DNA of 64,000 bases. It comes from Bacteroidales bacterium. GTDB lineage: Bacteria; Bacteroidota; Bacteroidia; Bacteroidales; UBA932. The notes under the pieces are model-generated. The model did not search any database. It saw only the letters and a program-made list of their open reading frames with translations, and was not told where the DNA came from. Position 1 is the stretch's first letter. Each line of letters begins with the position of its first letter. Positions 53,742 through 58,710 of the stretch are shown here, piece after piece. Position numbers and translations under genes: made by a program. Where the stretch lies: NCBI GenBank assembly GCA_012522855.1, contig JAAYJQ010000012.1, positions 167,476 to 231,475 on the forward strand. The letters are read 5' to 3'.

Positions 53742-54165
53742 GGTTTATTTTTTATTGTTTTCTTCGTTGAGGTTCTTTCGTTACTCAATTCATATATATA
53801 CGAATAATATTTGAATAAAACAAGATATTATCAAAGCTTTTTAAAATATTTAGACGTTTTAAATAACAGTCTATCGCGACGGCAGGAGAAAACGAGCATC
53901 TTGAATGAAAACCTTGGCCTCTTGTAACGGGCGGACTGGATGCAATGGCGGATTTCGGGGGTGATCTGAGGCGTCTGCGATGACGCGGACTGGCCAACCG
54001 CTAAAGATAGGTTCCGTTTCCGAATCGAATTAACTTTACAAAATACTATAAAGGACATCAAGGAATATTTGTATGTCCTTTACATTGATTTTTTATCTAC
54101 CAATTAATCAGTTATTTGACTACTCCTTATTACTTTACATCCGAATGCTGTTCCAGAAAAAACAT

Positions 54166-54196
54166 TTTGATGCTTATTTAAATTAACGTACTTTTG
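54166..54196 (+). promoter_or_regulatory. Predicted operon promoter TTTG-N19-TACTTTTG
   Basis: TTTG 54166..54169 and TACTTTTG 54189..54196, 32 nt upstream of the DUF47 start at 54228. Confidence 0.7.
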
Positions 54197-54227: not shown

Positions 54228-54875
54228 ATGTTCAATCAGAAGAAAATCCACCGGATCATTGATGACTTGAATAAGTTTTTCGATACGATCGATCAGTCGC
54301 TTCTCGTTTTTTCGGAAGGCGTAAAAAACTACCTGTACAGTGATCTGGAGTCATTCAACGGTAACTTGCAGACGATCACCCGGCTGGAAAACGAGGCGGA
54401 GGTTCTGCGGAGGGAGATCGAAGCCAGTCTGTACCGCCAACCCAGCTTCGTGCGGCAACGGGGCGACATCATGCGTCTGCTGGAGGGGCTGGACCATATC
54501 ATCGACACCTTGAACAACAATCTCTTCCAGTTTGAAATAGAGACACCATACATTCCTGTCGAGCTGAACGGAGATTTCCTAAAACTAACCGAATTGTCCA
54601 CACAAGCTGTGGAAACTGTCATTCCTGCTGCGAAAGCCTATTTCAAGACCAATGAAAGCATTACGGAAAAAATTCATCGGGTCTATTTTTATGAAAAAGA
54701 GACCGACAAGCAGGCAAAGTCGCTGAAGCGGAAGGTCTTCCATAAGATGGAGGGACTCAAATTGAGTCAGAAGTTCCATTTGCGGTATTTCGCCCTCCAT
54801 ATCGAAGACCTTTCCGTGGAGGCGGAAAAGGTCGCGGATCAGCTTTCCGTGATGTCCATCAAGCGCAGCTACTGA
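54228..54875 (+). CDS. DUF47 (PhoU-like) family protein
   Basis: MFNQKKIHRIIDDLNKFFDTIDQSLLVFSEGVKNYL...ETDKQAKSLKRKVF...LHIEDLSVEAEKVADQLSVMSIKRSY; start set downstream of the predicted promoter. Confidence 0.85.
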   Translation: MFNQKKIHRIIDDLNKFFDTIDQSLLVFSEGVKNYLYSDLESFNGNLQTITRLENEAEVLRREIEASLYRQPSFVRQRGDIMRLLEGLDHIIDTLNNNLFQFEIETPYIPVELNGDFLKLTELSTQAVETVIPAAKAYFKTNESITEKIHRVYFYEKETDKQAKSLKRKVFHKMEGLKLSQKFHLRYFALHIEDLSVEAEKVADQLSVMSIKRSY

Positions 54876-56458
54876 TGGAAGCTGCGGTGTATGTACTCCT
54901 TGCGGCACTGCTGTTCGGGATCTATGCGATCACGGACCTCCCGATCGTGCTGTCGCCGGCCGGTACCTGTCACACGGTCCTGGGGAAATATCTTCCTGTG
55001 GGGATTTCCGCTCTACTCTTCCTCGGCCTTGCGCTTTCCCGCCCTTTCGCGTCTCCTGTACCTTGCCTGGATGCGCTGACCGTTTGTCTAGCCGCTGTCT
55101 TTGTCCTCTTGCTGCTCCGACCATTCTTTAAGGAGGTGTCGATTGTGTTCGCCTTGTTCGGCGCCGCCTCCGGAATCCGTTTGTTCCGGGGGACGGTTCC
55201 GTCGGTCCAGTGGTCCGTCCCGCTTTCCTGGCTGGCAGCCGCCGTGCTGACCGGATTGCTGTCCATGTTATTGTACGCCTTGCTTCTCTGGAGCCGATCC
55301 TGGCAGAGAAGCCCTTTCCTCTCTCATCTGAAACGGATGGGGGATGCGATTTCGGTCGCATCCGGCTTTCTGCTGGTGGCTGTCGGTTTGAATCTGGGCC
55401 GGGGTATCCCTTCCGTGCTGTCGATCCGGGACGAACTCCTTCTCGCCGCGCTTCTTGTCGGGGGTATCGCCTTCCTGGCCAGATCCTCTGTCGAAGCGGT
55501 ATCCGGCAGATACATGGAACGCATCTTCGACATCAATCCGGAATCGGCTCTCTCCATCACCGTGTCCATATTCTTGGTTTTGACACTCTTTTCCTTTGAC
55601 GGCATCTTTCCGGCGCTCCGTTTGAAGGCAACCGTTCTTTCTCCCGGTCTCCTCGCTCTTGCAGGCCTGGTCGGGTGTCGGATTTCGCAGGGGCGGAGTG
55701 TGAACTGGGCGTCCGTGGTTTCCAAGGCGGGAACGGACATGCTGTTGACACCTGTTTTTGCGCTTGTGGTCAGCTACCTGATGGCCTGTCTCTTCCACCC
55801 GGAATCCTTCAAGATGCAGGGCACCCTGATCCTTGCCTTGACCATGCTCCTGCTGCTTGCCGTTGCGATCCTGCTCGCCTTCATGTTCCATCATTTCCGG
55901 GTCGCCAGTTCCTCCGGACGCACGCTCCGGGAACGGGAGAATGAGTTGAACGCGAACAGGAGGGCGATTAGTGAACTGGAACTCAAGACGATGCAGGTCG
56001 AGAACGAAAATCTGCACAATCTCCTGCAGCGCAAACGTCAAGAGTTGGTGAGCGTGGCGATGAACATCAACGAGCAGAAGGAGTTCATACGCGACATCTA
56101 CGAGCAGGTCGGGCTGGCCCGGTGGGAAAAAGATGTCGAAAAGAAGAATGCTCTTCTGCACGACATTCAGGTCGGTCTCAACCTCCGTATGAATTTCAGC
56201 AACGAGATTGATAGTTTTTATGCCCAGGTGGAACAACTGCACAAAGATTTTACGACGCGGATGGCAGAGAAATTCCCGAATCTGACCAAGCAGGAGAGAC
56301 GGCTGACGATCCTTCTGCGGCTGGGTTTCTCGACGAAATACATCGCGACCCTGATGAACATCGCGCCTGCCAGCGTGGAAATCAGCCGGCACAGGCTTCG
56401 CGCGAAGATGGGGCTGAGCCGGAACCAGAATCTCACAGATTTCATTAAAACCATATAA
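54875..56458 (+). CDS. Multi-TM (PiT-transporter-like) protein fused to coiled coil and C-terminal LuxR-type HTH
   Basis: About 10 hydrophobic segments incl. 'SVNWASVVSKAGTDMLLTPVFALVVSYLMACLF'; coiled coil 'RERENELNANRRAISELELKTMQVENENLHNLLQRKRQE'; HTH 'LTKQERRLTILLRLGFSTKYIATLMNIAPASVEISRHRLRAKMGL'. 1-nt overlap with DUF47. Confidence 0.75.
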   Translation: MEAAVYVLLAALLFGIYAITDLPIVLSPAGTCHTVLGKYLPVGISALLFLGLALSRPFASPVPCLDALTVCLAAVFVLLLLRPFFKEVSIVFALFGAASGIRLFRGTVPSVQWSVPLSWLAAAVLTGLLSMLLYALLLWSRSWQRSPFLSHLKRMGDAISVASGFLLVAVGLNLGRGIPSVLSIRDELLLAALLVGGIAFLARSSVEAVSGRYMERIFDINPESALSITVSIFLVLTLFSFDGIFPALRLKATVLSPGLLALAGLVGCRISQGRSVNWASVVSKAGTDMLLTPVFALVVSYLMACLFHPESFKMQGTLILALTMLLLLAVAILLAFMFHHFRVASSSGRTLRERENELNANRRAISELELKTMQVENENLHNLLQRKRQELVSVAMNINEQKEFIRDIYEQVGLARWEKDVEKKNALLHDIQVGLNLRMNFSNEIDSFYAQVEQLHKDFTTRMAEKFPNLTKQERRLTILLRLGFSTKYIATLMNIAPASVEISRHRLRAKMGLSRNQNLTDFIKTI

Positions 56459-56482: not shown

Positions 56483-57883
56483 ATGAAACGTTTATTTTTC
56501 ATTTTGATGCTTGCCGCAATCTGCGGGACGCTTCCGGGACAGGAAATACCGCAGGAAGATGTCAACCAATATGGCCAGAAGGTCTCCGTCGAGCCTCTCA
56601 ACGCGCAGATGCACGACGGCATTCTCGTCCTTAAGGGAACCAAAACGGATTATCGGCTTTGGTTCGATATCCGGATCCTGACCGACGCGGCGGTGTTTTT
56701 CGGGGCGCCGGACTACTGCGCCGACCAACTTGACGGAAAAGACAACCCGAACCACATCGGAAACGGCATAAACATCCGCCGCTCCCGTTTTGCCGTCAAG
56801 GCGATGCTGGATAAGAACTGGTACGGCGAATTGGACACGGATTGGACCAGCGGCATCCCCGAAATCAAGGATGCGTTCCTCGAATATTGGGGTGTGCCCG
56901 GACTTACCCTGAGGGGCGGCAATTTCAAGGAGGATTTCGCCATTCAGCGCAACACCACCTCTCGTCACCTGATGTTCATGGAACGGGCGATGTCCACCTA
57001 TCTTGCCCCGTCGCGCCATGTGGGTTTCAGCGCGCGGTATTTCCGCAACTGGTTCTGGGCGTCCGCCGGTGTTTTCGGGCCGGAACTGGCCGGTCCTGAA
57101 GAAATGACCGCCATGGAGGACAACAACAAGGATCTGGGACGAAACGTCGGGCTTTCTTACACCGGCAAGCTGGTTTTCCGGCCGCTTTACAAGTACAATA
57201 TAGAGGACGTCTCGCTCCACATCGGAGGAGCCATCTCTTATCGGGAGCCGAAGACCACGAGCACGGACGGCTACGGCGTAGCCCGTTACAGCATGCGGAA
57301 TTCCACTTCGGTGAACCGGAAGAAGTACCTCGATACGGACGTCATTCCCGGCCTCGACCACGAACTGGCGTGGACCGTCGAACTCGCCGGCCACTACAAA
57401 AGGTTGCGTTACGAGACTGCCTACATCGCGCGCGGAGCTTACTTGAACAGGGCTGTGAATGACCTTGATCCCCAGTGGGCGAAGGGATATTATGCCCAAG
57501 CCAGCTATCTGCTGTTCGGCGGACACCAGAGCTATGACCCTTTTGGGGCCAAATACACCCGCGTCACCGTGCCTGACAAGAAGGGCAACTTGGAGATCGC
57601 CGCGCGATACGATTTTTGCGATCTGAACACGAAAAATTATTTCGGCGGCAGCGGAGAAAGCTATGCCATCGGAATCAACTACTACCCGAACTGGAATGTG
57701 AAGATTATGCTCAACTGCCAGTACAACAACAACGACCGCTACGCCAACGGCAAGGGCAAGCTCTTCGTCGGTTATGACGCATCCGGCAAACCGACCAAGG
57801 ATTATACGAAAGTCATTGCGGGGACCGGAAAGGGAGGCGTCGACTACTTTATGCTCGCGCTCCGTTTGCAAGTTGCATTTTAA
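56483..57883 (+). CDS. Phosphate-selective porin O/P (OprO/OprP) family protein
   Basis: INIRRSRFAVKAMLDKNWYGELDTDWTSGIPEIKDAFLEYWGVPGLTLRGGNFKEDFAIQRNTTSRHLMFMERAM; terminal barrel strand LALRLQVAF. Confidence 0.85.
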   Translation: MKRLFFILMLAAICGTLPGQEIPQEDVNQYGQKVSVEPLNAQMHDGILVLKGTKTDYRLWFDIRILTDAAVFFGAPDYCADQLDGKDNPNHIGNGINIRRSRFAVKAMLDKNWYGELDTDWTSGIPEIKDAFLEYWGVPGLTLRGGNFKEDFAIQRNTTSRHLMFMERAMSTYLAPSRHVGFSARYFRNWFWASAGVFGPELAGPEEMTAMEDNNKDLGRNVGLSYTGKLVFRPLYKYNIEDVSLHIGGAISYREPKTTSTDGYGVARYSMRNSTSVNRKKYLDTDVIPGLDHELAWTVELAGHYKRLRYETAYIARGAYLNRAVNDLDPQWAKGYYAQASYLLFGGHQSYDPFGAKYTRVTVPDKKGNLEIAARYDFCDLNTKNYFGGSGESYAIGINYYPNWNVKIMLNCQYNNNDRYANGKGKLFVGYDASGKPTKDYTKVIAGTGKGGVDYFMLALRLQVAF

Positions 57884-57903: not shown

Positions 57904-58710
57904 ATGAAAAAGTTTATATTTACATTGATCGCTGCTGCCGTGGGATTGACGGCTTGTGTGGAAGATCCCATCTACAACATGGCTTCCGTTTCCAATCTGA
58001 AAAATACGGTCGCCTACAATGAAGACGACGCCGTGACTGTGACGGCAGAAGTTACCGCGTTGGTTCGGGTACTCGAGGCCAATCTGATCTACAAGGCGGG
58101 TTCCGCCGCGGAGAAGCGTGAGAAAATGACTTCGTCGGGCAATACCTGGACCGGTCAGATTCCTGCTCAACCCATGGGGACGGAGGTGAAGTACCGCGTC
58201 GAAGCTGTCACGGAGGGCGGAACAGCCCGTTCGACGGAGGTTTCCTACAAAGTAGGCGATGTCCCCATCAACTATTCCGGTCTCGTGCTCAACGAGCTCA
58301 ACGGCAACGACAAGTTCATCGAACTGTTCAACAAGGGCGCCGAGGAGATCCGCATCAAGGGCGTTACCATCCAGAAAGATGAAAAACTGGTCTGGACGGC
58401 AGGCTCGGTGATCCTCGAGCCCGGGCAATACCTGTTGCTCTACAGCGTGGATGTACAGGCTGATCATCCGGATCACGATCCTGCGTGCTTCTTTGATTCC
58501 GGTTTGTCGGCTAAGAAGGCCGTGAAGGTCGAACTCTTCGACCCGAAGGGCGCCAGCCTGGACAAGTTCAACCTGGTCAATTTCGTGATGAAGGCTCCGG
58601 CCTCCTACAGCCGTGTTCCGAACGGAACCGGCGGCTGGTACTTCACCGACGCGACCCCTGCTGCCGTGAACGCGTCCGACAATTCCACCCCGGTGGAAGG
58701 TTTGGAATAA
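57904..58710 (+). CDS. Lamin-tail-domain (LTD) lipoprotein
   Basis: AAVGLTACVEDP lipobox; LVLNELNGNDKFIELFNKGAEEIRIKGVTIQKDE...LEPGQYLLLYS... LTD pattern. Confidence 0.8.
   Translation: MKKFIFTLIAAAVGLTACVEDPIYNMASVSNLKNTVAYNEDDAVTVTAEVTALVRVLEANLIYKAGSAAEKREKMTSSGNTWTGQIPAQPMGTEVKYRVEAVTEGGTARSTEVSYKVGDVPINYSGLVLNELNGNDKFIELFNKGAEEIRIKGVTIQKDEKLVWTAGSVILEPGQYLLLYSVDVQADHPDHDPACFFDSGLSAKKAVKVELFDPKGASLDKFNLVNFVMKAPASYSRVPNGTGGWYFTDATPAAVNASDNSTPVEGLE

Follow-up and report, generated by a model that had tools for sequence, protein, structure and literature searches.

In the usual models of phosphate control a histidine kinase stands between the transporter and DNA, while how PhoU-type proteins relay the phosphate signal is, to our knowledge, still an open question. 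In S. aureus, PitR regulates phosphate homeostasis together with the transporter PitA, and loss of PitR raises PhoPR-dependent expression (PMC13170248). A two-hybrid assay showed no contact between PitR and PitA of S. aureus (PMC11705898).

Here we analyzed a 64,000-nt stretch of DNA (the window; all coordinates count from its first letter), in which, as in S. aureus, a PhoU-like gene lies beside a PiT-type gene, the PhoU-like protein of S. aureus being an accessory regulator of phosphate homeostasis (PMC13170248). The output of S. aureus PitR passes through the PhoPR two-component system, whereas in the window the PiT-derived partner carries a fused DNA-binding domain. PitR is operon-linked, and in some relatives itself fused, to a DNA-binding domain. 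The fusion protein is probably a membrane-bound, PitR-coupled one-component regulator of its own operon, derived from a PiT transporter joined to a TM-coiled coil-HTH module.

A PiT-like domain joined to a coiled coil and HTH

The fusion gene (54875–56458, + strand) encodes a protein of 527 aa. It is composed of a PiT-like membrane domain (residues 1–314; 54875–55816), an extra TM helix (residues 316–343; 55820–55903), a coiled coil or linker (residues 344–460; 55904–56254) and a NarL/LuxR (GerE)-type HTH domain (residues 468–524; 56276–56446), all on the + strand. In the AF2 model (pLDDT 88, alignment of 63 family members) residues 316–417 form a single helix, which begins with the TM segment (hydrophobic from 314 to 343) and continues as the coiled coil that had been read from the sequence. 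The C-terminal HTH was detected by the Pfam GerE profile (3.1e-6, 27.2 bits; cut-off 23.5), and in the model it matches the structures of StyR, FixJ and DosR (Foldseek). In agreement with the original prediction of a LuxR-type domain common among Bacteroidota regulators, the module from about residues 305–320 onward matches the C-termini of many Bacteroidota proteins with frames of 500–1000 aa; because it is shared in this way, the join between the PiT part and the output module can be placed near residue 312. The C-termini of PiT proteins sit outside the cytoplasm, and one added TM helix would therefore put the HTH inside.

The membrane part has the PiT fold. The Pfam PHO4 profile matched the N-terminus of the window protein at E = 4.4e-5 (23.1 bits), below the cut-off of 33.7, which was passed by the relatives L043 (44.1 bits), L113 (43.2), L107 (53.7) and L159 (180.9). 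The top Foldseek match of the AF2 model was TmPiT 6l85 (probability 1.00, TM 0.58 by target), and nothing else among the 50 PDB matches listed fitted the membrane part well. Profile searches agree with this assignment: a profile built from 21 members of the genus alone, with no intact PiT included, matched 6l85 at 1.3e-6, and hhalign of the family against canonical PiTs gave E = 3.5e-13. The 'W..T.P' segment, on which the PiT assignment had partly been based, aligns with the last PiT segment in the profile-profile comparison. No unrelated TM fold (e.g., 7TMR-DISM), which would have spoken against the assignment, was found, the best unrelated transporter among the 50 matches reaching a probability of 0.33.

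To characterize the substrate motifs, we compared 62 family members with L159 and nine canonical PiTs, judging the binding-site residues by motif conservation. The acid of motif 1 is D or E in 58 of the 62 members and the Asn of motif 2 is present in all 62; what the family has lost is the second Asn of motif 1, along with the T-T-H/Q residues and, often, the Asp/Asn of motif 2. By this measure the erosion of the substrate motifs is patterned and non-random. What is left in the window protein is the motif-1 acid (D21, 54935–54937, + strand), the motif-2 Asn (N173, 55391–55393, + strand) and, in part, the Ser residues. Thus, the GxNDxAN motif was rightly described as missing for the most part, except for its aspartate, which is retained as D21. 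PiT transporters carry the GxNDxAN signature in both halves together with the P-S-T-T-H/Q elements; since these are largely gone from the window protein, we do not file it as a PiT transporter. The loss of the second Asn of motif 1, the T-T-H/Q residues and others makes canonical transport by the family unlikely, and canonical phosphate transport by the window protein likewise appears unlikely. A residual or altered substrate site may possibly persist in the eroded members.

The conserved operon and its candidate operator

The DUF47/PitR (PhoU-like) gene is located at 54228–54875 (+ strand; likely start ATG 54228, the longest ORF running from TTG 54198) and ends at the nucleotide where the regulator ORF begins, so the predicted adjacency with a 1-nt overlap was confirmed. 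Its product exceeds the cut-off of Pfam PhoU_div (1.4e-15, 57.7 bits; cut-off 24.4) and is assigned to DUF47/PitR by this profile and by the conserved position of the gene beside a PiT-type gene. Two further conserved members follow on the same strand, a Porin_O_P outer-membrane porin (56483–57883; Pfam 3.7e-31) and a lamin-tail-domain (LTD) protein (57904–58710; Pfam LTD 8.8e-10), probably a lipoprotein with a weak lipobox-type match. Other than the PiT-derived protein itself, no inner-membrane transporter is encoded in the operon. Across the operons the LTD protein is between about 205 and 740 aa long and has one to four LTD copies (window 57904–58710; L151:8806–10989).

In the genus, about 20 homologues of the regulator that are complete or nearly so were found, and in these the order DUF47 - PiT-HTH - Porin_O_P - LTD is retained wherever the contig reaches, with gaps mostly shorter than 45 nt. 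Within the genus, the identity to the window proteins is 54–64% for DUF47 vs. 24–34% for the whole regulator. Scanning GTDB species genomes with a DUF47 alignment gave 216 relatives, of which the best 80 were examined; the same operon was present nearly throughout these 80 loci, whose carriers include Rikenellaceae, Tidjanibacter, Odoribacteraceae, Bacteroidales bacterium CF, Cloacibacterium rupense (Weeksellaceae) and others. As the roughly 20 homologues of the genus and most of the best 80 wider loci keep it, the PiT-HTH architecture is evidently no chance join. It should be mentioned that one genome (G026) carries two differing copies of the entire operon, on C37 and C39 (L037, L031), and that at L135:6651–8273 the regulator is present as two ORFs of 353 and 162 aa, which could be due to an assembly error, to a frameshift or to a genuine split.

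Besides the regulator, the genome from which the window comes contains a further PiT of 754 aa and NptA-type transporters. A search for the PstB family in this genome gave no match reaching the cut-off; only hits close to or above it were counted, because every ABC ATPase gives matches and the search is noisy. A second DUF47 gene without an adjoining PiT gene is located on contig C2 (L095:4905–5564), where the neighbors resemble NqrF and NqrE by eye.

In the region upstream of the operon (the 300 bp before DUF47) we revealed three copies of CTTTACA on the + strand: site 1 at 54034–54040 (context AACTTTACAAAATA), site 2 at 54078–54084, 44 bp after site 1, and site 3 at 54133–54139, 55 bp after site 2. 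None of 20000 shuffles reached three sites. They conform to the family motif CT[CT]TACA, which occurs in 69 of the upstream regions of the best 80 of 216 loci (shuffles: mean 3.9, maximum 11); a relaxed form occurs in 78 of the 80. The sites are oriented, 136 being forward and 8 reverse. They often form direct repeats with an 11-bp period, pairs being spaced by about 125 bp, and frequently lie 20 bp upstream of TAnnTTTG, which we take to be the consensus of the Bacteroidota -7 element. In the window such an element, TACTTTTG (TAnnTTTG), is located at 54189–54196 (+ strand); there is no site at -33, the nearest starting 56 bp upstream of the -7 element. Reading the motif as an inverted repeat was tried and dropped, the sites being direct and oriented.

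The exact double site was found in 5 of 101 genomes searched, once per genome and always upstream of the DUF47/PiT-HTH operon, and no strict site was present in nine HTH-less operons. Base 3 of the operator goes with a residue of the recognition helix, CTC occurring with Tyr (n = 53) and CTT with His (n = 6 plus the window; Fisher 5e-7), except in L096 and L098 (CTC/His) and L105 (CTT/Tyr). The His/CTT loci fall mostly within one clade, and this covariation is only suggestive, because the loci are related and the Fisher p ignores phylogeny. Outside the operon, a genome-wide search for single sites hardly departed from chance, and it defines no regulon. In G079 the reversed pattern used as a control for the operator search was found 36 times and probably belongs to a repeat family of that genome. 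Taken together, the operator evidence supports the part of the original prediction by which the regulator is likely itself the transcription factor of its operon, in which case its HTH would bind these sites.

Relatives with intact, eroded and missing PiT domains

The relatives differ in the state of the PiT domain. The combination of DUF47, an intact PiT and a porin without the HTH was found in L094 and, where readable, in other families of the phylum (L219–L230). In L222, L226 and L228–L230 the intact PiT of the HTH-less operon bears a C-terminal extension of about 140 aa to which no domain was assigned.

An intact PiT joined to the coiled coil-HTH module is encoded by L159:6640–8394 (584 aa), which has all four substrate motifs and whose model matches 6l85 with a TM of 0.65. 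The protein had been described as a degenerate transporter, and this holds for the window protein but not for L159, where an intact PiT sits on the same HTH module. No second intact PiT-HTH fusion was found in about 400 genomes of the phylum. The L159 contig may be chimeric, which is disfavored by the uninterrupted 584-aa frame, the same operon and the presence of operator sites. L159 is the most promising candidate for a phosphate transceptor that works and at the same time is a transcription factor.

An eroded PiT with the HTH is characteristic of the window and about 70 loci among the best 80 of 216. Finally, in four loci the PiT is gone and DUF47 is fused to the HTH module. The arrangement is DUF47-2TM-coiled coil-HTH in L145:5995–7392 and L152:5995–7398, with L151:5980–7395 equal in length, while DUF47-HTH proteins without TM helices are encoded by L154/L093 (L154:5962–6930, 322 aa). 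The PiT-less loci L145, L151, L152 and L154 retain a CTTTACA site; the short L145 contig shows no porin.

In the DUF47 tree the two intact-PiT loci group together (100/96); the four PiT-less loci also do so (95/81) if the very long-branched L092 is set aside. The root of this tree is uncertain, and for this reason the order "intact first, then decay" is based on the motifs and on the HTH-less operons found elsewhere. On this basis, the relatives may represent steps from a separate transporter through a working fusion and an eroded sensor to deletion of the transporter and fusion of PitR with the regulator. The series of intact, eroded and absent domains would then document clearly how, in nature, a transporter turned into a receptor.

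Proposed mechanism and comparison with known systems

According to the mechanism that we propose, PitR would bind the PiT-derived domain on its cytoplasmic face and report the phosphate status to it, in place of a kinase. With ample phosphate, PitR would keep the output part, coiled coil plus HTH, silent; under falling phosphate, dimers of the HTH would act at the CT[CT]TACA sites in front of pitR and raise, presumably as activator and not as repressor, the transcription of pitR, the regulator itself, the porin and the LTD protein. In the branch of the window the canonical transport site would be gone and the PiT domain would serve as a sensor or docking scaffold. We give an even chance to the view that phosphate is sensed here by a complete circuit lacking a two-component system, in which PitR directly controls an HTH on a transporter-derived partner, and that the relatives record the steps given above.

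Since some relatives have lost the PiT and have DUF47 fused to the HTH, the phosphate signal may enter via DUF47/PitR as much as via the PiT domain, and the latter, with its eroded binding motifs, may sense nothing. It is thus a substantial possibility, somewhat short of even, that sensing lies wholly in PitR and that the PiT-derived domain is a decaying membrane anchor and PitR docking surface. The higher conservation of DUF47 compared with the whole regulator fits this, as do the PiT-less proteins in which two TM helices (L145, L152) or a direct fusion (L154) connect DUF47 to the HTH, a CTTTACA site being kept; a passive anchor, however, need not keep the motif-1 acid and the motif-2 Asn with the constancy seen in the family. 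The same two residues, the complete motifs of HTH-fused L159 and the lack of another inner-membrane transporter in the operon would suit a true transceptor, in which signaling is combined with continued transport of phosphate or another oxyanion. This appears quite unlikely for a window protein devoid of the remaining GxNDxAN and P-S-T-T-H/Q residues, in a genome that has the 754-aa PiT and NptA-type transporters.

The nature of the signal and the owner of the operator can also be questioned. Eroded substrate motifs, the breadth of the Porin_O_P family and an LTD protein without a known ligand leave room for sensing of another oxyanion, or of outer-membrane or phosphorylated-substrate status; we consider this rather doubtful, as the DUF47, PiT and Porin_O_P ancestry in the phylum points to inorganic phosphate. 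Another factor could bind the operator, because its 7-bp direct repeats with a 4-bp spacer resemble the E. coli Pho box, which we take to have the same geometry and an 11-bp period, and the proximal sites are often near the -33 position. Still, an operator owned by a PhoB-type or other factor, with the fused HTH inactive or active at other places, is unlikely: among the relatives' genomes containing the double site, it is confined to the region upstream of this operon, HTH-less operons are without strict sites, and base 3 goes with the recognition helix. Under the preferred reading, PitR-coupled control of the operon by its own HTH, two proteins and one promoter would suffice to test the link from PitR to DNA, since a candidate operator is in hand. 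Otherwise little is known about how gut and rumen Bacteroidota that, as here, lack a recognizable Pst system control phosphate.

The window regulator shares with PiT/SLC20 proteins (PF01384; TmPiT 6l85) the fold, the inverted repeat and the DUF47 neighbor, and differs from them in the eroded substrate motifs and the added TM helix, coiled coil and HTH. The module at residues ~305–527 is common to the Bacteroidota TM-coiled coil-HTH regulators (BT3442 family, NF053779), which have other input domains. In our literature searches we found no described PiT-HTH fusion, transceptor of such type or PiT-derived regulator with a PitR partner. The 12-TM LuxR activators DadR, HcdR and CadR of Eggerthella lenta likewise combine a polytopic N-terminus with a C-terminal LuxR HTH in a single-protein activator, but they are actinobacterial, respond to catechol-type compounds, have no PitR partner and are not described as PiT-derived (PMC9734109). 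In the histidine kinases CbrA and CrbS a transporter domain has likewise turned into, or doubles as, a sensor; this domain is, however, SLC5 and not PiT, and the output is a kinase with a response regulator instead of a fused HTH (PMC7096432, PMC5715377). With CbrA, CrbS and the Eggerthella lenta activators as precedents, proteins of this general kind are already known, and what is new here, as judged from the upstream regions compared, is the conserved, oriented operator CT[CT]TACA in front of the operons.
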